Shown in pieces: positions 4,158-40,019 of a stretch of 40,286 bases of DNA; positions within the stretch are counted from its first letter, which is position 1; every line of letters starts with the position of its first letter. Source of the DNA: Chitinophagaceae bacterium (GTDB lineage: Bacteria > Bacteroidota > Bacteroidia > Chitinophagales > Chitinophagaceae). The position numbers and the translations under genes are program-made. Where the stretch lies: the NCBI GenBank assembly GCA_026415715.1, contig JAOAGO010000003.1:88204-128489 (forward strand), given 5' to 3'. Under the pieces are notes generated by a model. That model ran no database searches, was not told the origin of the DNA, and worked only from the letters and a program-made list of their open reading frames with translations.

Positions 4158-5035
4158 AAAGAAAAACCGCCATCAAATCCTTACTGGGTACCGGAGTGTT
4201 GCTGGCCGCATCGGGCAGATGGGCTGAAACATTTGCCGATGAAATTTCAGCATTACCTTTAAAAGGAAACATCCGGCACTCCGTTTGTTCGTGGACATAC
4301 AATTTTCTTTCGCTTGAAGAATTGTGTGCTGTGGTAAAACGGCTGGGCTTTTCGGCCATTGACCTGCTGGCTCCGAAAGACTGGCCGGTGATACAGAAGT
4401 ACGGCATTACCTGCAGCATGTGTTATACGGCCGGTAAAATCAGCTTAACCGAAGGCTGGAACGACAAAAAAAATCATGACTGGCTGATTAAAGATTATAC
4501 CGAAGCCATTCCGCTGGTGGCCAAAGCGGGTTATAAAAATCTGATTTGTTTCAGCGGCAACCGTAACGGCATGGATGACGAAACGGGATTAAAAAACTGC
4601 ACGGAAGGACTGAAAAAAATTATGTCTCTTGCCGAAAAACACGGTGTTATTGTTCAGATGGAGCTGTTTAACAGCAAGGTAGATCATAAAGATTATATGT
4701 GCGACAAGAGCGCCTGGGGGGTTGAACTGTGCAAACGTATCGGTTCGGAGCATTTTAAATTGCTGTATGATATTTATCATATGCAGATTAATGAGGGGGA
4801 TATTATCCGCACCATCAGGGAAAACTCCGTGTATTTCGGGCACTATCACACGGCCGGGGTACCGGGACGAAATGAGATTGATGAATCGCAGGAATTGTAT
4901 TATCCCGCCATCATGCGGGCTATTGTAAATACCGGATACAAAGGATTTGTGGCGCAGGAATTTATCCCTACCGGAAAAACCAACGCCGAAAAAATAAAAG
5001 CATTACAGAAAGCCATAAAGATTTGCGATGTGTGA
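4154..5035 (+). CDS. Hydroxypyruvate isomerase-like TIM-barrel protein (exported)
   Basis: A member of the xylose-isomerase-like TIM-barrel superfamily closest to hydroxypyruvate isomerases. Family motifs are visible: the metal-ligand glutamate in VQMELFNSK, the LLYDIYHMQINEGD strand, and GHYHTAGVPGRNEID, followed by a C-terminal QEFIP glutamate. Length is 293 residues, about 30 longer than cytoplasmic Hyi. The extra N-terminus (MKRKTAIKSLLGTGVLLAAS) looks like a degenerate Tat or Sec signal, so the protein is probably periplasmic. An exported copy next to a GMC dehydrogenase argues against simple hydroxypyruvate metabolism and for isomerisation or epimerisation of a keto-sugar; this is inference. 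It overlaps the upstream MFS gene by 4 bases. Confidence 0.85.
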   Translation: MKRKTAIKSLLGTGVLLAASGRWAETFADEISALPLKGNIRHSVCSWTYNFLSLEELCAVVKRLGFSAIDLLAPKDWPVIQKYGITCSMCYTAGKISLTEGWNDKKNHDWLIKDYTEAIPLVAKAGYKNLICFSGNRNGMDDETGLKNCTEGLKKIMSLAEKHGVIVQMELFNSKVDHKDYMCDKSAWGVELCKRIGSEHFKLLYDIYHMQINEGDIIRTIRENSVYFGHYHTAGVPGRNEIDESQELYYPAIMRAIVNTGYKGFVAQEFIPTGKTNAEKIKALQKAIKICDV

Positions 5036-5118
5036 AAAAAATTCCGGAACGTGAGGATGAATATCGTGCGGCGTAATGGATTTTGTGCGTTAAAGCCGAT
5101 GAGCATGATACAGCTTAC

Positions 5119-5305
5119 GGGCTGCCCCGCCCGGAGCACGAACGAAGTGAGGTGCGCAGCGGCCCGGTTCTTCGAGCAAATTTTTAGAGAAATATGATTT
5201 TGTTTAACTGATTTTTGAAACATGAATTTGATGCAGGCCGCAAGCACGGTTACTGCGAAGGGCGGGGAACTGAAGCCGAGAAAAGAACAGGAAGCTGACA
5301 GCCCC
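5119..5305. repeat. Structured intergenic repeat, copy A (long, divergent)
   Basis: First of three related intergenic elements (others at 18067-18178 and 39153-39254). It opens with GGGCTG (5119-5124) and closes with CAGCCC, and carries an inner CCCCGCCC (5125-5132) that pairs with GGGCGGGG (5260-5267). The last 13 bases (AGCTGACAGCCCC) are identical to copy C. The inner arm is about 125 nt, much longer than in the other copies, and the second hairpin seen in B and C is degenerate here. It fills most of the 308-bp gap before the GMC oxidoreductase and ends 38 bp before that ATG. No gene is seen in the gap. Confidence 0.7.
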
Positions 5306-5343
5306 GGAAAAAATAAAAATGTTTAAAAACTAAAAATAAAACT

Positions 5344-7032: not shown

Positions 7033-8937
7033 ATGCGAAACAGAATTCTTTTTCTGTGGATTTTTTTCTTTGCGCAGGCGGCAGCACAGCCTAAGGGAGA
7101 GAATTATTATTATACGTTTAAACAAGGCCAAACCGATCAGGATATAAGCCGTACGGAAAATCTGAAACAACGGGAAGTGTTGCGAAAAGACAGATCCGTA
7201 CTGATAGAATCAAAGGTTTTGCCTTTGCCCTTGCAAGACGTAAAGCCTTTTCTTGCCGTATCGGCCCGATGGTATGAAAAGGAAGGAATGGAAAAAAATA
7301 CATTTCTGTATCTGCGTTTTTCTGCCGACGGTATTCAATTTGACGAATGGCAATTACTGGCTGAAGATGAACATTTCACCGAAGGTGAAAAGCATGCTAC
7401 CGGATTGCTTTATTATGAAAAGGAAGCCCGATATTTTCAGTACCGGATTGAAACCAACCGAAACGGTGCCGGCATTACGGCCAGGGAAGTGATGTTTAAT
7501 TTTTTTAATCCGGGAAAAATCAGGGAAGATCAAAAGTTGCCTGCCGGCAAAAACAGTGAAGAAGAACACCGGGAAGAAAACGTAGCGGCCTGTCCCTGTT
7601 ACTTACCCCCCTACAAGTCACGCACCGAGTGGGGGTGTCCGCAGGGACAGGGACGGGTAAGCGGCGTAGGCACTTCTCCAGCAGTTACACATTTGATTGT
7701 ACATCATTCTGCCGGCTCAAATACCTCAACCAACTGGGATGCGGTAGTGCTGAGCATCTGGAATCTTCATGTAAACACCAACGGCTGGAGCGATGTAGGC
7801 TACAACTGGCTTATAGCGCCCAACGGGCAATTGTATGAAGGAAGGGGCGGAGGAGAAAATGTGATTGGCGCCCATTTTTGCGGCACCAACTCGGCCACCA
7901 TGGGTGTGTGCATGATCGGCACCTATACTTCGGTTCCGGTAACCGATACGGCAAGAGCGACCCTGGTAAGAATTCTCGGATATAAGGCCTGCCAGTCAAC
8001 CATTAATCCATTGGGACAAAGTTTACATCCGGCATCAGGGTTAAATCTGTTTCACATTTCAGGGCACAGGGACGGATGTGCAACGGAGTGCCCGGGTGGA
8101 AATTTTTACGCCACGATACCCGCCTTACGCACGGAAGTGAATCATTATATCAACAGTTGCCCACCATGTCCGCCTCCTGCCAATCCCGTCATCAATGCCA
8201 CGCCCTCAACGGCATCTGCATGTCAGGGTGATTCGGTATTGTTAACCGCTGCTGCAGACAATTGCAGCAATTGTACATACAGTTGGAGTAACGGAGCAAC
8301 AACTCCGTCTGTTTATGTAAAAACTTCCGGCAAGCAGACCGTATTTATGAGTAGTTCGTGCGGCCGGGTGAGTCAGGTGCAAACGGTAACGATACATCCG
8401 AGTGTAACCCCTTCAGTTCAGATTTCAAGAACCTCATGTAACTCTTCGGCCATTACCTATTCGGTTAGCGCCTCAAACAACGGAGGAACGGCGCCAGCTT
8501 ATCAATGGTATGTTAATGATACGGCCCGAGGGAGCGGAAATACCTTTACGTTAAACAATCCGGTAAACGGCACAAGAGTATTTTGCCGCATGACCAGCAA
8601 TGCGCCCTGCGCTTCACCGCAAACGGTAAACTCCGGTACGGATACCGTAAACTGTGTAGTTACATCGGTAAGCCAATTAAACGATGTGGAATATATCCGC
8701 GTAATGCCTAATCCGGCAAGTCGGCAGGTTTATCTGGACATTCAGCCCAAAAGGCCGGGAGTCTTTTCGTTCAGAATTGCCGATGCTAACGGAAAAGAAA
8801 TATACCGGCTTGCGGAAAGAAGAATTATTTCCCGATCCGTTTTCAGGATTTCGACGGAAGGATGGCTTAGCGGCACTTATGTTGTGATTATTTATTTCAA
8901 CAATAAATCTATTTCCAAACCTTTAATTGTTTTATGA
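7033..8937 (+). CDS. Secreted N-acetylmuramoyl-L-alanine amidase/PGRP-domain protein with T9SS sorting domain
   Basis: A 634-residue exported protein. Residues 1-18 form a signal peptide; about 30-160 form a beta-rich region of unknown role. A peptidoglycan-recognition/amidase_2 domain spans about 195-375 with expected zinc ligands H224 (IVHHSAG), H345 (SGHRDG) and C353 (ECPGG), plus the conserved tyrosine Y257 (GYNW). All catalytic positions are present, so amidase activity on the peptide stem of peptidoglycan is plausible. Then comes an Ig-like/PKD-like linker (about 385-550) and a type A T9SS domain beginning near VMPNPAS, ending in KPLIVL, which directs it across the outer membrane. It starts 9 bp after the GMC gene and its TGA overlaps the next ATG, so it is embedded between the two dehydrogenase subunits. 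Target (own wall or competitor wall) is unknown. Confidence 0.9.
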   Translation: MRNRILFLWIFFFAQAAAQPKGENYYYTFKQGQTDQDISRTENLKQREVLRKDRSVLIESKVLPLPLQDVKPFLAVSARWYEKEGMEKNTFLYLRFSADGIQFDEWQLLAEDEHFTEGEKHATGLLYYEKEARYFQYRIETNRNGAGITAREVMFNFFNPGKIREDQKLPAGKNSEEEHREENVAACPCYLPPYKSRTEWGCPQGQGRVSGVGTSPAVTHLIVHHSAGSNTSTNWDAVVLSIWNLHVNTNGWSDVGYNWLIAPNGQLYEGRGGGENVIGAHFCGTNSATMGVCMIGTYTSVPVTDTARATLVRILGYKACQSTINPLGQSLHPASGLNLFHISGHRDGCATECPGGNFYATIPALRTEVNHYINSCPPCPPPANPVINATPSTASACQGDSVLLTAAADNCSNCTYSWSNGATTPSVYVKTSGKQTVFMSSSCGRVSQVQTVTIHPSVTPSVQISRTSCNSSAITYSVSASNNGGTAPAYQWYVNDTARGSGNTFTLNNPVNGTRVFCRMTSNAPCASPQTVNSGTDTVNCVVTSVSQLNDVEYIRVMPNPASRQVYLDIQPKRPGVFSFRIADANGKEIYRLAERRIISRSVFRISTEGWLSGTYVVIIYFNNKSISKPLIVL

Positions 8938-14117: not shown

Positions 14118-15170
14118 TTATTTTTTCAGGGATGCCAGGTCAATGACAAAGCGGTAACGGACATCATTTTTCAACAGCCGCTCATAGGCATTATTGATTT
14201 GTTGCATAGGAATCACTTCCACATCGGCGGTGATGTGGTTGGCTGCACAATAGTCAAGCATTTCCTGAGTTTCCTTCAGTCCTCCAATCATGGAACCTAT
14301 GATACTTCTTCTGTTAGTGATCAGTGTAAAAGGATTCAAAGCGGGCTGCTCTGCAGGAAGTCCTACCAGTAACAACTTTCCGTGCAGCCTGAGCAGATTC
14401 AGGTATTTTTCCAAATCGTGATTGGCCGACACGGTATCCAGAATAACATCAAAATAATTTCTCCTGGCGGTCATGGCGGCCGTATCCGAGCCCAGCAGGA
14501 AATCGTGAGCGCCCAGCCACAAGGCATCGGCTTTTTTAGAAGGCGAGTGACTGATAACGGTTACTTCTGCTCCGAACGACACGGCGAATTTCACTCCCAT
14601 ATGCCCTAATCCGCCCAGTCCGAGCACAGCTACTTTCATTCCCGGCGATACCTGAGCGTAACGTAAAGGCGAGTAGGTTGTAATTCCCGCACAAAGCAAG
14701 GGCGCTATCGCGGCCAGGTTGCCGTTGTCTCTGATGTGAAAAACATAATTTTCCTGCACTACAATTTGTGTGGAATATCCGCCCTGGGCAAGCGTTTTTC
14801 CATCTCTTTCATAACCGTTGTAGGTTCCTGTCATTCCTTCATCACAGTAGTTTTCATAATTATTTAAACAATTAGGACATTTGCGGCAACTGTCCACAAA
14901 CACACCCACACCGGCCAGGTCACCTTTCCTGAATTTAGTCACTTTACTTCCCACCTGTACCACCCTACCTATAATTTCATGACCCGGCACCATGGGATAA
15001 AGCGAGCCGCCCCATTCGTTTCTTACCTGATGCAAATCGCTGTGGCAAACGCCGCAATACAAAATTTCAATCTGTACGTCATCTTCACGTGGCACTCTTC
15101 GATGAAATTCATAAGGCTTTAATTCATCGGTTGGATTGTACGCTGCAAAGGCTTTTGTCAGAGTATTCAT
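14118..15170 (-). CDS. Zinc-dependent NAD(P) alcohol dehydrogenase (CAD/YahK-like)
   Basis: A medium-chain, cytoplasmic alcohol dehydrogenase or aldehyde reductase. The 350-residue protein has catalytic-zinc residues C42 (GVCHSD) and H64-E65 (VPGHE), four structural-zinc cysteines C95, C98, C101 and C109, and a nucleotide-binding GLGGLGHMG. It resembles the cinnamyl-alcohol-dehydrogenase/YahK branch that reduces aldehydes with NADPH. Its ATG overlaps the TGA of the GH3 gene by 4 bases, so it is translationally coupled to a xylosidase. The substrate in a xylan operon is unclear: reduction of a plant-derived aldehyde or of a sugar aldehyde are both possible. Start at 15170 is the ATG of that overlap and fits the family N-terminus. 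Confidence 0.93.
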   Translation of the reverse strand: MNTLTKAFAAYNPTDELKPYEFHRRVPREDDVQIEILYCGVCHSDLHQVRNEWGGSLYPMVPGHEIIGRVVQVGSKVTKFRKGDLAGVGVFVDSCRKCPNCLNNYENYCDEGMTGTYNGYERDGKTLAQGGYSTQIVVQENYVFHIRDNGNLAAIAPLLCAGITTYSPLRYAQVSPGMKVAVLGLGGLGHMGVKFAVSFGAEVTVISHSPSKKADALWLGAHDFLLGSDTAAMTARRNYFDVILDTVSANHDLEKYLNLLRLHGKLLLVGLPAEQPALNPFTLITNRRSIIGSMIGGLKETQEMLDYCAANHITADVEVIPMQQINNAYERLLKNDVRYRFVIDLASLKK

Positions 15171-17812
15171 TTTATCAGTATTTTTTTTGTAATGACATTG
15201 CTTGTCGTTGCGTGTGGCATATTGGGCTGGCCGCCGCCTATACTGATGGTTATAACTCCTGAGGGCTGAAATAATTCTCCCGAGTTTTCATGTACCAGGC
15301 TTAGTTCATCCGGTGTCAGGCGGAAGCTGACGTTTTTGCTTTGGCCTGCTTTCAGAAAAATACGTTGAAATCCTTTCAGGGCCCTGATGGGTTTTCGCCC
15401 TTTGTAGTCGTTATGTGTGACATAGAGTTGAACTACTTCTTCGCCATCTCTGCTGCCTGTATTGGTTACACGAGCCGAAACCATAATTGTTTTTCCTTTG
15501 CCCGATGTGGCGGGACATGAAAGGTGACTATACCGGAACTGTGTATAACTTAACCCGTAGCCAAAGGGATATAAAACGTCGCCGTTGAAATAGCGGTAAG
15601 TGCGCCTGCTCATGTCGTAACTCTTGAAATCGGGCAGATCGTTGTCGCTTTTGTAAAAGGTTACGGGCAATCGTCCGGCCGGATTATAATCGCCGAACAG
15701 CACATCTGCTACTGCCGTACCTGCACTTTGTCCGGCATACCAGGCGTTCAGTATAGCCGGTATGTTTTCCTGTTCCCAGGGAATGGCTATGGCGCTTCCG
15801 GTCATCATCACAAAAATTACCGGCTTTCCGGTTTGTTTCAGGGCCTTCATCAGCTGCGTTTGTACAGCAGGTAACCGGATGCTGGTTCTGTCGCCGCCGA
15901 GAAAACCCGGGGCATCAACGGGCATTTCTTCGCCCTCCAGCTGAGGCGAAATGCCGCCTACGAAAATGATGGCATCGGCGTCTTTCAGCCGTTCGGCCAG
16001 CTGATTGAAGTCGGTTTTTACATACCGCCCCGATTTCAGTTTTACCAAAGCGTTTCCTTCGCCCTGGTAGTATTCCATGACGATTTTTATGGGTTGACCT
16101 TTTTGCACCGGCACGCTGAATTGCCTGGCTCCCCAACGATTCCGTGTCCATGCATTTATCCAAAGTGAATCATTGATGTAAACACGATATCCGTCGTCAG
16201 CTTCCGCTTCAAAGTGCATCAAACCATCAATCTCCGGCCGCAAATATGTAGTATATCGGGCTGAAAAATTTAAGGTTCCTATTCCCGGCGCCGGTGTTTG
16301 CCCTTCGGGCCAGTAATGGTCAATTTCGTTTTCCCACTGCACTATCTGCGGATTACCTTCAAGGGTCTTATTATTAAAATATTCTGCCTTCACACCGGGT
16401 TTACCGTCTATGCTAAGCAGCCGGCTTATGTCGTCGTATAGCAGTAAGGTATCATTTGTAAAATTTATTGCTTTTTCAAAAACGATTTCGGTACTGCTTC
16501 CCAGCTTTTCCTTCAGGCCATCCAGCACAGTAACCACACGAGAAGGCATGCCGTTGTAGTTGCCGAGTACAGCAATGCGATTATCGGCATTGGGTCCTAC
16601 TACGGCTATTTTTTTCAGCTTTTTACTAAGGGGCAAGGTCTGGTTTTCATTTTTCAGCAGTACCATACACTGTCGGGCCATGTGCAAGGCATGCGCTTTA
16701 TGTTCCGGAGCTTCCAGCACATTGGCTGTGATTCGGGCATAGGGCACTTTAGCCGGCGGGTCGAACATTCCCAGACGATAACGGATGGCAAACAAACGCC
16801 TTAGTGATGAGTCCAGCTGCGCTTCGGCAATGCGGCTACTTTTTACGGCATCGTAGAGTTTTTTATATACGACATGTCCGCACTCCAGGTCGGTGGTATG
16901 AACCAATGCATCTAAAGCAGCGCTGAGGGTGTCGGGATGAGTTTTGTGATATTTGTAGAAATCGTCAAGCGCCCAACAGTCGGAAGTGACGTAGCCTGTA
17001 AATTTCCATCGCCGGCGCAAGATGTCTGTCATGAGCACATCACTGGCGCAGCAGGGTTGGCCATAGATGGCATTGTAAGCACACATTACACCCGCTACGC
17101 CGGCTTTGGTTATCAGTTCGCGGAAAGCCGGCAGATAGGTATCCCATAAATCATAAGTGGAGGGATTAAAATTGTCGGAATGCCTTGTAGGTTCGGGGCC
17201 GCTATGTACGGCAAAATGTTTGGCGCAGGCAGCGGCTTTCAGGTAATAGGGATGATTGCCCTGAAGGCCGCGAACGAAAGCGGCTCCGAGCTTTGCCGTG
17301 AGAAAAGGATCTTCGCCGTAGGTTTCCTGTCCGCGCCCCCATCGCGGGTCGCGGAAAATATTGATGTTAGGTGTCCAGTAAGTGAGCCCCATATATCGTT
17401 CATGATTACGCCCTTGCTGCATGGCAAGGCCGTAAACGGCCCTTCCTTCGGTAGCTGACTGGTCAGCCATTTTTCTGAGTGAATTTGTATCCCATGTAGC
17501 AGCCATGGCGATGGCTTGAGGATAGGACGTAACCTTGTAAGGGGTTCGGGCAACACCGTGCAGTACTTCGTTCCACCAATCGTATGCCGGAATGCCCAAA
17601 CGAGGTACAGCCGGTGTAGCATTGAGCATTTGCGCAACTTTTTCTTCCAGGGTTAACCGGCTTATCAGGTCGTTAATACGTGTTTCGGGCGGAAGTGATG
17701 CATTCCACATCGGGAATGATTTATAGTCCTGCGATGTTGCCTTTGCCCCGCAACATAACAGCAGCTGAAGGAGTAAAGTTTTTCTCAGGAATACTGATGA
17801 TTTTGCTGCCAT
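15167..17812 (-). CDS. GH3 beta-xylosidase/beta-glucosidase with PA14 insert (exported)
   Basis: Hydrolyses terminal beta-linked sugars, here most likely xylose from xylooligosaccharides. Numbering is from the ATG at 17812 (881 residues); an in-frame TTG at 17848 would add 12 residues before the signal peptide and is less likely. Residues 1-28 are the signal peptide. The (beta/alpha)8 domain has YWTPNINIFRDPRWGRGQET, a CAKHFAVHSGPE block and GYVTSDCWAL with nucleophile D278. A PA14 carbohydrate-binding domain is inserted at roughly 470-610 (GVKAEYFNN through GEGNALVKLKSG). The second GH3 domain and a C-terminal fibronectin-III-like domain follow (YPFGYGLSYTQF). The lack of lipobox suggests a periplasmic enzyme. 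A 406-bp gap separates it from GH43 upstream, so it may begin a second transcript. Confidence 0.95.
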   Translation of the reverse strand: MAAKSSVFLRKTLLLQLLLCCGAKATSQDYKSFPMWNASLPPETRINDLISRLTLEEKVAQMLNATPAVPRLGIPAYDWWNEVLHGVARTPYKVTSYPQAIAMAATWDTNSLRKMADQSATEGRAVYGLAMQQGRNHERYMGLTYWTPNINIFRDPRWGRGQETYGEDPFLTAKLGAAFVRGLQGNHPYYLKAAACAKHFAVHSGPEPTRHSDNFNPSTYDLWDTYLPAFRELITKAGVAGVMCAYNAIYGQPCCASDVLMTDILRRRWKFTGYVTSDCWALDDFYKYHKTHPDTLSAALDALVHTTDLECGHVVYKKLYDAVKSSRIAEAQLDSSLRRLFAIRYRLGMFDPPAKVPYARITANVLEAPEHKAHALHMARQCMVLLKNENQTLPLSKKLKKIAVVGPNADNRIAVLGNYNGMPSRVVTVLDGLKEKLGSSTEIVFEKAINFTNDTLLLYDDISRLLSIDGKPGVKAEYFNNKTLEGNPQIVQWENEIDHYWPEGQTPAPGIGTLNFSARYTTYLRPEIDGLMHFEAEADDGYRVYINDSLWINAWTRNRWGARQFSVPVQKGQPIKIVMEYYQGEGNALVKLKSGRYVKTDFNQLAERLKDADAIIFVGGISPQLEGEEMPVDAPGFLGGDRTSIRLPAVQTQLMKALKQTGKPVIFVMMTGSAIAIPWEQENIPAILNAWYAGQSAGTAVADVLFGDYNPAGRLPVTFYKSDNDLPDFKSYDMSRRTYRYFNGDVLYPFGYGLSYTQFRYSHLSCPATSGKGKTIMVSARVTNTGSRDGEEVVQLYVTHNDYKGRKPIRALKGFQRIFLKAGQSKNVSFRLTPDELSLVHENSGELFQPSGVITISIGGGQPNMPHATTSNVITKKILIK

Positions 17813-17851
17813 ATATTTCTTTTTTGTTCTGTAAAGGCTTCCAATCAATTC

Positions 17852-17882
17852 AAAGTATATACTTTCAAGCTAATGAACCGAT
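17852..17882 (-). promoter_or_regulatory. Candidate regulatory sites upstream of the GH3 gene
   Basis: A perfect 14-bp palindrome (AAAGTATATACTTT, 17852-17865) lies 40 bp before the GH3 ATG. Nine bases farther out, TGAACCGAT (17874-17882) resembles the operator half TGCAACCGAT found twice by lacI, with one base missing. Together they could hold the promoter and operator of a GH3-to-GH51 transcript. No clear -33/-7 pair was found, so this is tentative. Confidence 0.3.
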
Positions 17883-18066
17883 AAAATGCCCTTATTCCTT
17901 CGCCACACCCATAATATACAACTCAAAATTCAACTTGTCCTCAAGTCTGCTTCTCAAATCTTTTAAACTGAAGGGTACACTTCTTGAATGAGAAACGAAA
18001 TGCAGAGTTTTGTGCTTACTCATTATTTTATTTTTTTTCCATGCCGACAGAATATCTGCCGCCGAC

Positions 18067-18178
18067 GGGCTGCCCTGCCTGAAGGGACTGGCCCACCGCC
18101 GCAGGCGGTGGGCGGAGTGAAACGAACCCCGCAAGGCAGGGGACTGCAGTTGAGAGATGCACTGCAGGTGAAAGCCCC
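18067..18178. repeat. Structured intergenic repeat, copy B
   Basis: Second copy of the repeat family, in the gap between GH43 and GH3. It opens with GGGCT (18067-18071) and closes with AGCCC. CCCTGCCT (18073-18080) pairs perfectly with AGGCAGGG (18134-18141), where the other copies have a C:G pair in place of this T:A. Inside is a perfect 9-bp hairpin CCCACCGCC-GCA-GGCGGTGGG. A second arm pairs CTGCAGT (18144-18150) with ACTGCAG (18161-18167) around a loop containing GAGAGATG. The rest of the gap (17813-18066) has no gene; a 103-codon minus-strand open frame over the repeat is a by-product of its sequence. Confidence 0.75.
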
Positions 18179-18218
18179 AAATCTTATTTAGTTGATTCAG
18201 CATAAAGCGGAATATATT

Positions 18219-19241
18219 TCAGTTGCCGTACGGTTTTATTGTGATGATTTTTCCATTGTTGTCGTAATACAGCGGTGTGCATTTTACGCTGCGCAAGTGG
18301 GTGACGCCGCCGCTGAGCAGGCTGTCGTGGTAAAACAAATACCATTGACTGCCGATGGCACAAATACTGTGGTGGGTTGTCCAGCCTACAACCGGCTCCA
18401 GGATGCGGCCGGCATAGGTGAAGGGGCCATACGGGTTGTCGCCAATGGCATAACAGAGAAAGTGAGTGTCGCCGGTGGAATAGGAAAAATAATACTTGCC
18501 GTTGTATTTGTGCATCCATGGCGCTTCAAAAAATCTGCGGTTATTGTCGCCCTGCAAGAGGGGCTTACCGTTTTCGTCGAGGATTACCACATCGGCGGGA
18601 GGTTCGGCAAATTCGAGCATGTTATCTTTCAGTCGGGCTACTTTGGCACATAGTGCGGGTTCATCATTTTCGGGTAAAAAGGCAAAAGGGCTTTCGGGCT
18701 GAGCGGGATTAAAGGTTCCGTTACGCCAGCGCTGTAACTGACCGCCCCAGATACCTCCGAAATAGATGTAATGACTTCCGTCATCATCTTTGAACACGGC
18801 GGGGTCAATGGAAAAACTCCCCGGAATGGGTTGAGGCTCTGCGGCAAACGGGCCGGCCGGTGAGGAACTTGTTGCTACGCCGATTCGGAAGATACCCTCT
18901 TTGTCTTTGGCCGGAAAATAAAGGTAATAGACGCCGTTTTTTTCGGCTGCATCAGGGGCCCACATTTGCTTTGCTGCCCAGGGAACCTCTTTGATATGCA
19001 GCGCAACGCCTTCATCTACTGCCGGTGCATCGGGATGGTCCATCCGCAATACATGGTAATCTTCCATGGCGAAATGGCTGCCCAGGTCGTCAAATGCATC
19101 ACCTGCGTCAATGTCGTGAGAACAATAGATATAAATTTTTCCTTCGAATACATGTGCCGACGGGTCGGCGGTATAAATATGAGTAACCAATGGTTTTGAA
19201 ATGGCGTTTTGTTGCAATACTTCGATGTTGATGATTTCCAT
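18219..19241 (-). CDS. GH43 family glycoside hydrolase, cytoplasmic (beta-xylosidase/arabinofuranosidase)
   Basis: A five-bladed beta-propeller hydrolase acting on xylooligosaccharides or their arabinose branches. The 340-residue protein shows the three GH43 acidic residues: D26 in YTADPSAHVF (base), D146 in FSIDPAVFKDDDG (pKa modulator) and E239 in FFEAPWMHKYNG (acid). It has no signal peptide, so it works inside the cell, and it starts 12 bp after the GPH symporter gene. The pairing implies that the symporter brings in short xylooligosaccharides for this enzyme to finish. The choice between beta-xylosidase and alpha-L-arabinofuranosidase cannot be made by eye. Confidence 0.93.
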   Translation of the reverse strand: MEIINIEVLQQNAISKPLVTHIYTADPSAHVFEGKIYIYCSHDIDAGDAFDDLGSHFAMEDYHVLRMDHPDAPAVDEGVALHIKEVPWAAKQMWAPDAAEKNGVYYLYFPAKDKEGIFRIGVATSSSPAGPFAAEPQPIPGSFSIDPAVFKDDDGSHYIYFGGIWGGQLQRWRNGTFNPAQPESPFAFLPENDEPALCAKVARLKDNMLEFAEPPADVVILDENGKPLLQGDNNRRFFEAPWMHKYNGKYYFSYSTGDTHFLCYAIGDNPYGPFTYAGRILEPVVGWTTHHSICAIGSQWYLFYHDSLLSGGVTHLRSVKCTPLYYDNNGKIITIKPYGN

Positions 19242-35929: not shown

Positions 35930-36967
35930 ATGAAAAACAGAAAAGAAATCACCATCTACGATATTGCCCGAAAGCTTTCACTGTCTTCTGCCACTGTCAG
36001 CAGGGCACTTCGCGACCATCCGGCCATCAACAAAAACACCAAACGGAAAATTCAGGAAGCGGCCAGAGAAATGGGCTACCGTCACAACAATTTCGCCAGC
36101 AACCTCCGACGACAAAAAACACACACCATTGGCGTAATGCTGCACGAACTGAACAGTAACTTCATCACTTCCGTATTATCCGGTATCGAAAAAGTAACTA
36201 CCGAGGCTGGGTATGACATCATCATAGCACACGCCGGAGAAAGCTATCAAAAGGAAATTGCAAACGCTAACAACCTTTTTCACAAAAGGGTGGATGGCGT
36301 AATAGCTTCCCTTTCCTTCACCACGGAAAACCTGCAGCACTTTCAGCAGTTTTTCGACAAAAACATTCCGGTCATCTTTTTTGACCGCGTAGATGAAGAA
36401 AGCGACTATACGCATGTTATTATAGACAATTATCGCTGCGGTTATCTGGCCACCAAACATCTGCTGGAACAAGGCTGCCGGAATATTGCCTTACTTACAT
36501 CCAGTCTTAAACGAAACGTGTACGCCCAGCGCCATCGCGGGTATGCCGATGCGTTATATGATGCCGGCATACCTTATCAGGAAAACTATGTAATGATTAA
36601 AGATCTTTCCGAACAAAGCGCCATAGAAGCAGCGCGGGAAATTATGGCTATGAATCCTCTTCCCGACGGGCTTTTTGTTACCAACGATTTTGAAGCAGCC
36701 GTATGTATGCAGGAGCTCAAAAAGCATGGCATACGCATACCGGAAGACATTGCCGTTGTAGGATTTAACAACGATGCCGTCAGTAAAATTGTGCAGCCGA
36801 TGCTAACCACGATTAACTATCCGGGTAAAGAAATGGGAGAAATTACGGCCCGAAATCTAATCAACCACCTACAAGGCATAGATAATCTGGAAAACACCAA
36901 GCGCATCATCATTAAATCAGAACTGATTATCCGCGAGTCTTCCTTGAAAAATAAAACTGCAGTTTGA
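35930..36967 (+). CDS. LacI/GalR family transcriptional regulator
   Basis: A sugar-responsive DNA-binding regulator, probably of the flanking xylan genes and itself. Numbered from the ATG at 35930 (345 residues): helix-turn-helix at 7-27 (TIYDIARKLSLSSATVSRAL), hinge helix NNFASNLRRQKT with the minor-groove leucine L59, then a periplasmic-binding-protein-like effector domain (TIGVMLHELNSNF, DGVIASLSF, NIPVIFFDRVD, PDGLFVTNDFEA, IAVVGFNNDAVSKIVQP, LTTINYPGKEMG). A GTG at 35855 is in frame, but that start would put operator 2 inside the coding region and adds residues unlike the family. Its stop shares a base with the GH67 start, so regulator and alpha-glucuronidase are co-expressed. The inducer is unknown. 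Confidence 0.95.
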   Translation: MKNRKEITIYDIARKLSLSSATVSRALRDHPAINKNTKRKIQEAAREMGYRHNNFASNLRRQKTHTIGVMLHELNSNFITSVLSGIEKVTTEAGYDIIIAHAGESYQKEIANANNLFHKRVDGVIASLSFTTENLQHFQQFFDKNIPVIFFDRVDEESDYTHVIIDNYRCGYLATKHLLEQGCRNIALLTSSLKRNVYAQRHRGYADALYDAGIPYQENYVMIKDLSEQSAIEAAREIMAMNPLPDGLFVTNDFEAAVCMQELKKHGIRIPEDIAVVGFNNDAVSKIVQPMLTTINYPGKEMGEITARNLINHLQGIDNLENTKRIIIKSELIIRESSLKNKTAV

Positions 36968-39111
36968 TGAAAAATTTTTTGCCTGTCTTCTGCTTCTTAA
37001 TTCTGTCAGCATGTTGTCATGCGCAAGCGGGATATCATCTTTGGTTAAATTACAATTACATCAACAACCCAACGCTATCGAAGCAGTACAGAGAACTGAC
37101 ATCAGCTGTTTACCTGCCGGGTCACTCGCCTACCCTTGACGCCGTGCGCTATGAACTAAACAAAGCCATCCCCGCAATGCTCGGCAGTAACGTGTTGTAT
37201 ACCCGTGATATCCGTTCGGCCGGCGTTATATTTACAAAAAACCTCTCTGAGAAGTCTGATCAGGTGCCATGCTCATTACCTTTTGAAGCGCTGAATGAAG
37301 AGGGTTATTTCATACGGTATTGCGGCGCTTCGGGAAAACCGAAAATTATTATAGGCGCAAAGTCGGATATCGGATTGCTTTACGGTGCATTTGGTCTTTT
37401 GCGAATGATGCAATTGCATTTTGCTCCGCAGAAAATGAATACCACCACCTCACCGGCTGTGAAGCTGAGGTTGCTCAATCACTGGGACAACCTGAACCGC
37501 ACGGTAGAAAGAGGGTATGCCGGATTCAGCATATGGAACTGGCATACGCTGCCCGAATACCGGGACCCGCGTTATACCGATTATGCAAGGGCCAATGCTT
37601 CAATCGGAATAAACGGAACAGTACTGACCAATGTAAATGCCAATGCTACCGTATTGACGCGGGAATGGTTGCTGAAAGTAAAAACGCTGGCTGACCTTTT
37701 CAGACCTTACGGGATAAAAGTTTATCTGACTGCACGTTTCAGTGCGCCTATTGAAATCGGCAAATTGAAAACGGCTGATCCATTGAGTGACTCCGTCAAA
37801 AACTGGTGGAAGGAAAAAGTAAGGGAAATTTATGCGCTGATTCCGGATTTCGGCGGTTTTTTGGTTAAGGCAAATAGTGAAGGACAGCCGGGGCCTCAGG
37901 ATTATAATCGAAGCCATGCTGATGGCGCGAATATGCTGGCTGATGCACTGGCGCCTCATGGCGGCATTGTAATGTGGAGGGCTTTTGTGTATAGGCCTGA
38001 TATTACCGACCGTTTTCGAGCTGCTTATGACGAGTTTAAGCCCTTAGACGGAAAGTTCAGGGATAATGTGTTGATTCAGGTGAAAAACGGGCCGATTGAT
38101 TTTCAGCCGAGAGAGCCCTTCTCTCCGCTGTTTGGTGCGATGCCTCAAACTAATATGATGATGGAATTTCAAATTACTCAGGAATATGTCGGTCAAGCAA
38201 CGCATCTGTTTTTTGTAGCACCCTGGTACAAAGAAGTTCTGGATGCAGATACGTATGCAAAAGGTAAAGGTTCAACAGTGAGCAAGGTAGTGGACGGAAG
38301 CCTTTATGGCAAAACATTGACCGGTGTGGCCGGAGTCAGTAATATAGGAAATGACATCAATTGGTGCGGGCATCCTTTTGCACAGGCCAACTGGTATGCC
38401 TTTGGCCGGCTGGCCTGGAATGCAACACTTCCTGCGGGAGAGATAGCAGAAGAATGGATAAAGCAAACCCTGACTCATGAAAGCCTTGCGGTACAACGAA
38501 TAAAACATATCATGCTCCATTCTACAGAAGCACTTATCAATTATATGACGCCTATCGGGCTTACACATATCATGCAGGACGGGCACCACTACGGGCCAAT
38601 GCCGTGGGGAAACAGCTTTCAAAGGGCTGACTGGAATCCGGTGTATTATCACCGGGCCGACACTAACGGTATCGGTTTTGACCGTACGGAAAAAGGAAGT
38701 AATGCATTAAGTCAGTACTTTACCGAAGTAAAACAGCTATTCGAAAACCCGGCCACCTGTCCTGATGAATATTTGCTGTGGTTTCATCGTGTGCCCTGGC
38801 ATCATAAAATGAAAAGCGGAAGAACTGTTTGGGAAGAGTTATGTTACCGTTATTATACCGGAGTGGATTCGGTTCGTTCGTTTATAAAGTTGTGGCGCAG
38901 TGTGGAAAAATGGATACAGCCGGCTATTTACCGCCAGGTAAGTGATTTACTGGAACGGCAGTTGTATGAAGCCCTCTGGTGGCGTGATGCCTGTATTTTG
39001 TATTTTCAAACATTTTCAAAGATGCCGATACCGAAGCCATACGAGGCTCCTAAGCAAACCCTGGAGTATTTTAAAAACCTGAAAATAAATTATGCACCGG
39101 GGCATTGGTAG
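36967..39111 (+). CDS. aguA: GH67 alpha-glucuronidase (exported)
   Basis: Removes (4-O-methyl-)glucuronic acid from the non-reducing terminal xylose of glucuronoxylan oligosaccharides. Numbered from the ATG at 36967 (714 residues; a TTG one codon earlier is rejected). The signal peptide ends near CHAQ (20). The N-terminal domain includes GLLYGAFGLLRMMQ; the barrel has LLNHWDNLNRTVERGYAG, EIGKLKTADPL and KANSEGQPGPQDYNR. E305, D378 and E406 have exactly the spacing of the acid and the two base residues (292, 365, 393) of the Cellvibrio enzyme. It follows lacI with a one-base overlap and precedes the SDR by 164 bp. It is expected in the periplasm, acting after oligosaccharide uptake. Confidence 0.96.
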   Translation: MKNFLPVFCFLILSACCHAQAGYHLWLNYNYINNPTLSKQYRELTSAVYLPGHSPTLDAVRYELNKAIPAMLGSNVLYTRDIRSAGVIFTKNLSEKSDQVPCSLPFEALNEEGYFIRYCGASGKPKIIIGAKSDIGLLYGAFGLLRMMQLHFAPQKMNTTTSPAVKLRLLNHWDNLNRTVERGYAGFSIWNWHTLPEYRDPRYTDYARANASIGINGTVLTNVNANATVLTREWLLKVKTLADLFRPYGIKVYLTARFSAPIEIGKLKTADPLSDSVKNWWKEKVREIYALIPDFGGFLVKANSEGQPGPQDYNRSHADGANMLADALAPHGGIVMWRAFVYRPDITDRFRAAYDEFKPLDGKFRDNVLIQVKNGPIDFQPREPFSPLFGAMPQTNMMMEFQITQEYVGQATHLFFVAPWYKEVLDADTYAKGKGSTVSKVVDGSLYGKTLTGVAGVSNIGNDINWCGHPFAQANWYAFGRLAWNATLPAGEIAEEWIKQTLTHESLAVQRIKHIMLHSTEALINYMTPIGLTHIMQDGHHYGPMPWGNSFQRADWNPVYYHRADTNGIGFDRTEKGSNALSQYFTEVKQLFENPATCPDEYLLWFHRVPWHHKMKSGRTVWEELCYRYYTGVDSVRSFIKLWRSVEKWIQPAIYRQVSDLLERQLYEALWWRDACILYFQTFSKMPIPKPYEAPKQTLEYFKNLKINYAPGHW

Positions 39112-39152
39112 TGCTGATCAGCAAATGGATGAATGATGCCGTACCGACGAAA

Positions 39153-39254
39153 GGCTGCCCCGCCTGAAGGGTTTAGCCTTACGCCTGTGGCGGAAGGCCG
39201 AAGCCCGTAAGGCGGGGGACTGCAGGTGAGAGATGCACCGCAGCTGACAGCCCC
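39153..39254. repeat. Structured intergenic repeat, copy C
   Basis: Third copy. GGCTG (39153-39157) pairs with CAGCC near the 3' end; CCCCGCCT (39158-39165) pairs with AGGCGGGG (39210-39217). Inside, GGGTTT pairs with GAAGCCC and GCCTTACGCC with GGCGGAAGGC (9 of 10 pairs), giving one long arm. A second arm pairs CTGC-A-GGTG with CACC-GCAG around AGAGATG. The whole folds as a three-stem junction. It lies between GH67 and the SDR and ends 21 bp before the SDR ATG. Confidence 0.75.
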
Positions 39255-39275
39255 AAAAAATAAAAACAAAAAAAT

Positions 39276-40019
39276 ATGAGTGAAAGAAAAGTTGCCATTG
39301 TTACGGGTGGCGGTTCAGGACTGGGACTGGCGATTGCCGCAAAATTCACACAAGAGGGAATCATGACGGTGATTGCCGGGCGAAATGCTGAAAAGCTGCA
39401 GGAGGCGGCTGCCCGGTTGGGTGAGCTTTGTTTGCCCGTTCCTTTCGATGTAAGTGAGCTGAAGACGGCGCCGGATTTTGTGCATCAGGTGGTGAAACGT
39501 TGCGGAAAAATTGACATTTTGGTGAACAATGCAGGAATCAATCTGAAAAAAGAATTCACGGAAGTGACGGATGAGGAATTTGAGCAGATTATCAGAACGA
39601 ATTTAACGGGTGTATTTGTATTGAGCCGTGAAACGGTTAAGCAAATGATACTTCAGGGGAGCGGATGTATTATTCACATCAGTTCAATGGCTGCGCAATA
39701 CGGCATACCCAAAGTGATTGCTTACACGGCAAGCAAAACGGCAATAGACGGAATAACCCGTGCTATGGCAGTAGAGTTAGCCCCAAAAGGAATAAGGGTA
39801 AACGCCATTGCGCCGGGATTTATTTATTCGGACATGACCGCGAAAGCGCTGGATACCGACCCTGAACGTAAAGCGAAAGTGTTCGGCAGAACACCCATGG
39901 GCAAAATGGGGCAACCGGAAGATATTGCCGAGGCGGCATACTTTCTGGCAAGCGATGCGGCAAAATATATAACCGGTGAAGTATTGCGAGTAGATGGCGG
40001 TAATGCGATTGGGTTTTGA
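39276..40019 (+). CDS. Short-chain dehydrogenase/reductase, candidate fructuronate reductase (D-mannonate oxidoreductase)
   Basis: A classical SDR of 247 residues: cofactor motif TGGGSGLG (10-17), NNAG (84-87), catalytic serine at 136-137, Y150 and K154 in YTASK, and the C-terminal LASDAAKYITGEVLRVDGG typical of sugar-acid reductases such as gluconate 5-dehydrogenase. It follows GH67 on the same strand. With uxuA in the xylan operon and no other mannonate oxidoreductase in view, reduction of fructuronate to mannonate is the most economical role; this is inference, and 5-keto-gluconate or another keto-acid is possible. The ATG at 39276 follows an A-rich leader directly behind repeat copy C. 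No signal peptide; cytoplasmic. Confidence 0.9.
   Translation: MSERKVAIVTGGGSGLGLAIAAKFTQEGIMTVIAGRNAEKLQEAAARLGELCLPVPFDVSELKTAPDFVHQVVKRCGKIDILVNNAGINLKKEFTEVTDEEFEQIIRTNLTGVFVLSRETVKQMILQGSGCIIHISSMAAQYGIPKVIAYTASKTAIDGITRAMAVELAPKGIRVNAIAPGFIYSDMTAKALDTDPERKAKVFGRTPMGKMGQPEDIAEAAYFLASDAAKYITGEVLRVDGGNAIGF

Follow-up and report, generated by a model that had tools for sequence, protein, structure and literature searches.

The window analysed here, a stretch of 40,286 nucleotides from a Chitinophagaceae genome, carries three members of a large family of dispersed hairpins, which we interpret, with a probability of roughly 0.45, as DNA hairpins of the Flavo-1 superfamily (Rfam RF01705) that are non-autonomous units mobilised by a recombinase of the integron-integrase/Xer type. 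That the copies represent a dispersed mobile DNA element is considered likely, and the tyrosine recombinase linked to some of them is tentatively put forward as a candidate mobiliser, at somewhat less than even odds. A more general proposal, which we regard as doubtful, is that the whole superfamily would correspond to folded-DNA recombination sites served by a tyrosine recombinase of integron type that is widespread among Bacteroidota, with the hairpin travelling alone or together with the gene.

The initial annotation had described three copies (A, B and C) of a structured element, and all of them are present in the sequence where it had placed them (Table 1). The anatomy of the family runs from a conserved 5' segment through a closing stem P1 (GGGCTG/CAGCCC), an inner stem P2 of eight pairs, a GRA/GNA-type internal loop, a GGG/CCC step and a variable tip to a second arm, which is found in some copies, and to the 3' edge AGCCCCAAA; the end logos obtained for the copies of this genome (own copies) are GAAGGGCTG and AGCCCCAAA. 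The shared ends that had been proposed are indeed present, but the conserved zone extends past both borders: it starts weakly some 36 nt ahead of GGGCTGC, is clear from about 26 nt and continues for about 16 nt beyond AGCCCC, and the model match of copy B takes in part of this upstream segment. In agreement with the claim of a structured fold, the folds of copies B and C are much stronger than those of dinucleotide shuffles (z −4.94 and −5.35, respectively, with 0 of 200 shuffles as good in each case), and this is less so for copy A, which is of a long-tip type whose first arm contains an AT-rich insert and has a weaker fold (z −1.93, equalled by 10 of 200 dinucleotide shuffles).

Table 1. Positions of the hairpin copies and their stems within the window.
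Feature	Position	Strand	Evidence and details
Copy A, whole model match	5106..5310	+	covariance model R2; contig C33:93309-93513
Copy A, closing stem P1, 5' strand GGGCTG	5119..5124	+	fold; 3' strand CAGCCC at 5299-5304
Copy A, inner stem P2, 5' strand CCCCGCCC	5125..5132	+	sequence, fold; 3' strand GGGCGGGG at 5260-5267
Copy B, whole model match	18054..18183	+	covariance model; C33:106257-106386
Copy B, P1, 5' strand	18067..18071	+	fold; 3' strand 18173-18177
Copy B, P2, 5' strand CCCTGCCT	18073..18080	+	fold; 3' strand AGGCAGGG at 18134-18141
Copy B, second arm hairpin CTGCAGTTGAGAGATGCACTGCAG	18144..18167	+	fold; only part of the family has a second arm
Copy C, whole model match	39139..39259	+	covariance model; C33:127342-127462
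Copy C, P1, 5' strand	39153..39157	+	fold; 3' strand 39248-39252
Copy C, P2, 5' strand CCCCGCCT	39158..39165	+	fold; 3' strand AGGCGGGG at 39210-39217

A search of the complete genome and of other Chitinophagaceae had been proposed as a check, and the covariance-model search retrieves both additional copies and relatives: a model built from 13 copies yields 69 matches (E≤1) in the 2.63 Mb of the own genome, besides the relatives described below. Using blastn, 47 matches are obtained (E≤10), some of which are two pieces of one copy, and two further copy fragments are cut by contig ends, while a search with a fixed IUPAC pattern found nothing. The copies are scattered across the contigs and do not form a tandem cassette array. 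Contigs also break off within copies and where a recombinase gene begins (L039 start; L104, L105); therefore, the repeats seem to break the assembly and the copy counts are floors. Regarding the variable parts, the AT-rich insert of the long-tip subtype is partly similar among the copies at window 5106-5310, C11:42738, C11:92207, C11:101249 and C1:11228. By eye, a CCCCGAATWATCGGGG hairpin was noted at the same place on the 3' side of the first arm in six own-genome copies with differing P2 (C2:28357, C10:14691, C27:5165, C2:46381, C55:65969 and C1:49060). A hammerhead-like CTGATGA string in the second arm was also considered and was set aside on inspection by eye.

The pairing of the stems was evaluated in an alignment of 76 rows, 71 from own copies and 5 from relatives, fitted to the structure of the model. 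Within P2, 91.8% of the cells are paired and 132 cells have changed on both sides versus 3 on one side, which upholds the view that the two strands of the inner stem change together. For the whole structure, the covariation score and the share of paired cells were each reached by none of 500 shuffles, and the number of pairs with two-sided change by 6 of 500. A 13-row MAFFT alignment is in agreement, with 18 two-sided and no one-sided changes in P2 and 97.1% of the cells paired, indicating that the covariation does not arise only from the structure-fitted alignment. Altogether, the covariation and the strong folds point, as the initial annotation had suggested, to a family of intergenic elements selected for structure.

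The P2 stem could be parsed in 71 copies (66 own and 5 from relatives; of the 76 rows, 3 were unparsable and 2 were dropped for weak complementarity), among which 36 distinct and mostly Watson-Crick stems are found; an A.G or G.A mismatch occupies pair 5 in 16 copies and pair 6 in 14. G-U pairs account for just 3 of the 524 standard pairs in the 76-row alignment; in structural RNAs, G-U intermediates are common. From this near-absence we would read the pairing of P2 as being maintained at the DNA level, or else as being re-established when one arm serves as the template for the other. A distinct scenario is observed for the second arm (CTGCAG...CTGCAG), which holds for copies B and C and for some others but is paired in just 52–70% of the cells of the same alignment and thus is not a family trait. 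Even on a modest reading, the family offers a large natural collection of stems that have been rewritten with hardly any wobble intermediates.

In respect to known families, the window has no Rfam match at gathering score, Flavo-1 included, and Flavo-1 was likewise absent from 14 own copies at E≤5 and from the own genome at E≤0.001, where the best 18 candidates were scored. Its relatives, however, can be reached stepwise. The model R1, for which no copies but the own ones were used, finds G005, G010, G015, G018 and G020 among 38 genomes, and R2 additionally finds G039 and G050. When 20 loci of relatives were scanned against Rfam, Flavo-1 was detected in 17 at E≤5, with two exceeding the gathering cut-off of 42 bits, and a second scan, comprising the 14 own copies and 6 congener loci, detected it in all 6 congener loci; for the loci of G018, G020, G039, G048 and G050 the E values range from 7e-5 to 0.13, and the weakest of these would not be proof by itself. 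As these loci of relatives match Flavo-1 and the own copies do not, the window copies are a diverged branch of the Flavo-1 family, with homology established via intermediates. The former statement that no known family could be named can thus be refined, as relatives of the own copies do match one.

The likeness to Flavo-1 comprises P2 and the tip, over which the relatives match, including the A.G mismatch in P2 and the GAA/GNA-type loop, as well as the occurrence of many dispersed copies in some genomes: the Flavo-1 model matches 61 of 244 genomes of the bacterial family (E≤0.001), and five of these have at least 18 matches. On the other hand, the own copies are too diverged and fall short of the model, the element is larger here, with P1, the end segments and the CCCCAAA edge lying outside the 76-nt Rfam model, and Rfam files the family as RNA whereas the present evidence favours DNA. 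In the catalogue, Flavo-1 stands as an RNA whose function is unknown; should the hairpins be DNA sites, the Rfam family would need reclassifying. Within the genus, R2 matches 10 of 42 genomes, the own one included, and the same 10 match R3; the copy numbers are very uneven, with 57–69 matches in the own genome, 10 in G048 (R3), 1–2 in eight others and none in 32 of the 42. Across the order, R3 matches at least 31 of the 248 genomes drawn, in 21 of 125 genera, these counts being floors as the best 11 candidates per genome were scored, and outside the bacterial family it is mostly the inner hairpin alone that matches.

Comparison of the flanks revealed that five own copies have long upstream DNA in common. 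The copy at C46:1165-1298 starts about 70 nt past the stop codon of an unbroken tyrosine-recombinase frame of 363 residues, which opens at the contig edge with its start outside the contig. This protein matches PF00589 (2e-38, 132.3 bits against a cut-off of 27.1) and PF13495 (5e-12), and its best solved relative in the PDB is IntI4 (5.8e-34). Judging from these matches, it is a predicted tyrosine recombinase of the integron-integrase/Xer-like type, falling below the curated NCBIfam cut-offs both for XerA/integron integrase (201.5 bits, cut-off 220) and for integron integrase TIGR02249 (187.2 bits, cut-off 265). IntI carries a specific insert in its catalytic domain, and in the alignment to the C46 recombinase residues 203-247 of IntI4, which may be this insert, have no counterpart. 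The same gene is found at C6:60149, C49:3410 and C54:3368, in a form with one common internal deletion joint, where homology starts near (C/T)AAATTTAC and stops at the 3' end of the hairpin, and at C31:608 only the 3' end of the gene is left. Because one deleted form is present at three places, the recombinase gene and the hairpin would most simply have been copied as one block.

An additional feature is found near this left border: among 80 named relatives of the gene, 35 have CAAATATACG-like sites, which resemble attI, at a distance of 56–222 nt ahead of the matched frame, compared with 4 of 80 in a downstream control, the pattern having been written after 19 of the 80 had been inspected. 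By eye, a Bacteroidaceae MAG (L307) and Epilithonimonas bovis (L312) have common DNA left of the recombinase that reaches the attI-like site, an arrangement to be expected from the capture of a cassette.

The association between hairpin and recombinase was analysed in other genomes. Among 20 hairpin-bearing genomes, 19 have a recombinase relative at E≤1e-20, in some cases only a housekeeping-like Xer, and 14, the own one included, have one at E≤1e-60. In G048 the recombinase gene lies within 300 nt of a hairpin (R3, 100.2 bits) whose match was made before the gene came to light, the hairpin being on the gene's other side; the same side is occupied in G302, where the hairpin match within 300 nt is weak (Flavo-1 32.4 bits, E 0.0044; R3 E 0.0063). 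In total, 136 tyrosine-recombinase loci were scanned with R3 (30 + 26 + 80, some possibly being one gene under two names; 11 of the first 30 are housekeeping-like Xer genes, and several loci are cut by contig ends), and no hairpin was found within 300 nt in 133 of these, the remaining 3 including the own copy that prompted the idea. A partial R3 match lies about 740 nt from the recombinase in L304, the remaining matches being weak (E 0.018 to 0.9) or distant, and Rfam detected no Flavo-1 in 17 recombinase loci or in the 12 scanned of the 80 named loci.

At the level of whole genomes, the recombinase (E≤1e-35) is present in 34 of 61 Flavo-1 genomes versus 64 of 183 others (Fisher one-sided P 0.0035, with no correction for kinship, the two draws of 244 genomes being assumed the same and the own genome counted as Flavo-1-negative). 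It occurs in 10 of 16 genomes with at least 5 Flavo-1 matches, and at this threshold it is absent from 27 of the 61, including G128, G299, G378, G399, G401 and G468, each with at least 5 matches. Given the 3 of 136 loci and the modest co-occurrence, the recombinase as mobiliser is a candidate and not a finding. The link between the hairpin and an integron-like recombinase is nevertheless the new and testable part of this work; for Flavo-1 it was not found in the titles and opening lines of abstracts of the open papers covered.

Further evidence for mobility comes from two close species of another genus, G338 and G403. A unit of about 156 nt is matched, wholly or in part, at 41 places in G403. 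Four syntenic pairs of 20-kb regions, selected because they share copies, were compared; of the 7 unit matches on the G338 side, 6 have an in-place counterpart in G403. One whole unit of about 157 nt, which lies next to another in inverted orientation, occurs in G403 and is absent from G338; this unit was missed by blastn and was seen by eye and then by motif (row L217 +). The copies are short, have no frame of their own, are dispersed and have apparently been copied to new sites, as in MITE-like elements. A DDE transposase might then be the agent, with the hairpin as internal cargo or by-product of MITE-like derivatives, and by eye the G338/G403 units do have AT-rich inverted termini resembling ACTAAAAATGTAATGA / TCATTACATTTTTAGT, which makes a DDE-type mobiliser possible there, and the polymorphic G403 unit seems to be flanked by an imperfect 8-nt repeat. 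Yet a scan over 23 G338/G403 copies detected no duplication at a fixed offset (best z 3.80 in 2475 tests, read as chance), and the own copies lack such inverted ends and have no direct repeat clearly above chance: the longest averages 5.78 against 5.59 expected over 63 copies (P 0.095), and the offset scan of 62 copies gives best z values of 4.04 in 3000 tests for 5-mers and 2.92 in 3000 for 8-mers, also read as chance. We consider this explanation unlikely; the transposase search covered Y1 (PF01797) alone. That search bears on elements of the REP/RAYT or IS200/IS605 type handled by a Y1 HUH transposase, an option which the initial annotation had offered and which could be favoured by REPs being intergenic palindromes with stem mismatches. 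No PF01797 match exists in the own genome at E≤0.001, whereas the same search gave hits for 5 of 14 control genomes, and the recombinase that accompanies five of the repeats belongs to the tyrosine type, so this option is not supported and is very improbable.

The location of the copies is informative in respect to the explanations that invoke no mobility. Copies A, B and C lie between genes with clear Pfam domains, six in all, as had been stated, although two presumably spurious antisense short frames overlap copy A (4900-5247, 115 aa) and copy B (17892-18203, 103 aa). With crude longest-frame gene calls of at least 360 nt for 68 own copies, 19 of those flanked by like-oriented neighbours are in sense and 18 in antisense; a further 18 lie between convergent and 8 between divergent genes, and 5 have one open side. 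Stop codons are closer to the 3' edge than to the 5' edge (median 40 versus 150 nt, one-sided P 7e-5). Convergent genes had also seemed to be preferred at the 3' edge (43 of 68), but this depended in part on short frames and does not hold once the 360-nt minimum is applied (39 of 67, binomial P 0.22), and only the distance asymmetry is retained. The orientation figures and the proximity to stop codons agree better with DNA elements that are tolerated downstream of genes than with an element acting in transcripts. A structured RNA, either a non-coding RNA or a UTR element as Rfam files Flavo-1, would account for the strong folding and covariation, and the conserved GRA/GNA internal loops and the A.G mismatch also fit RNA motifs; against it stand the absence of strand bias, the scarcity of G-U in the varying stem and the presence of about 70 highly diverged copies in one genome, which weaken both RNA options raised initially. 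A Flavobacterium transcriptome study reports Flavo-1 hits that coincide with several 5' transcribed regions, but the hits lie sense or antisense indistinctly, many outside transcribed regions, and gave no real clue to function (PMC9723704). We thus hold an RNA to be quite unlikely. Even less probable are non-mobile host elements, such as bidirectional transcription ends or chromosome-folding sites selected after gene ends: the stop-codon proximity and the excess of convergent over divergent pairs would be expected from them, but the shared recombinase remnants and the nested insertion common to six copies are signs of copying, and so are the very uneven copy numbers within the genus and the whole-unit difference between G403 and G338.

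The non-autonomous mobile element therefore remains the best of the three options raised initially. According to the mobile-hairpin reading, the copies would act as folded DNA hairpins, either single-stranded or cruciform, and would spread as non-autonomous units, the mobiliser in this lineage most likely being a tyrosine recombinase of the integron-integrase/Xer type. This enzyme would recognise the fold, that is, the constant base P1 and CCCCAAA edge, the sequence-free P2, the A.G mismatch and the GRA/GNA loop, and by analogy with IntI on attC the crossover would take place at the 3' CCCCAAA edge. The attC sites of integrons are likewise long imperfect hairpins with constant ends and a variable mismatched stem, and the resemblance extends to the recombinase, being nearest to IntI4 in the PDB and having an attI-like site before the gene in many named relatives. 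The own copies differ in that they lack the GTTRRRY/RYYYAAC core at their ends, the 3' edge being different, and in that they are dispersed rather than arrayed, while the own recombinase departs from integron integrases in its score below the cut-off and perhaps in the unmatched IntI4 segment. REP/BIME, ERIC and BOX elements are also intergenic, palindromic and present in many copies with no reading frame, but the elements described here are longer and have a great stem divergence with compensation, and no Y1 transposase was found. If the proposed mechanism is true, it would represent a new class of hairpin recombination, testable in common laboratory strains of Bacteroidota, in which stems are freely rewritten while the fold is kept.

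Two observations regard the surroundings of the hairpins. In several G338/G403 copies (L207, L213, L214 and L215) a second palindrome, of the type CTGTAGCATTAATTTTTTTTCAAAAAATACGCTACAG, abuts the CCC of the hairpin 3' edge, and such a palindrome is present at L394 ~7217-7353, matching a place in G338 without one. In the window, copy A is flanked by genes with TIM-barrel and GMC-oxidoreductase domains, copy B by GH3 and GH43 genes, and copy C by a GH67 gene and a short-chain dehydrogenase; the GH3, GH43 and GH67 genes (15167-19241 and 36964-40019) suggest a hemicellulose-use locus.
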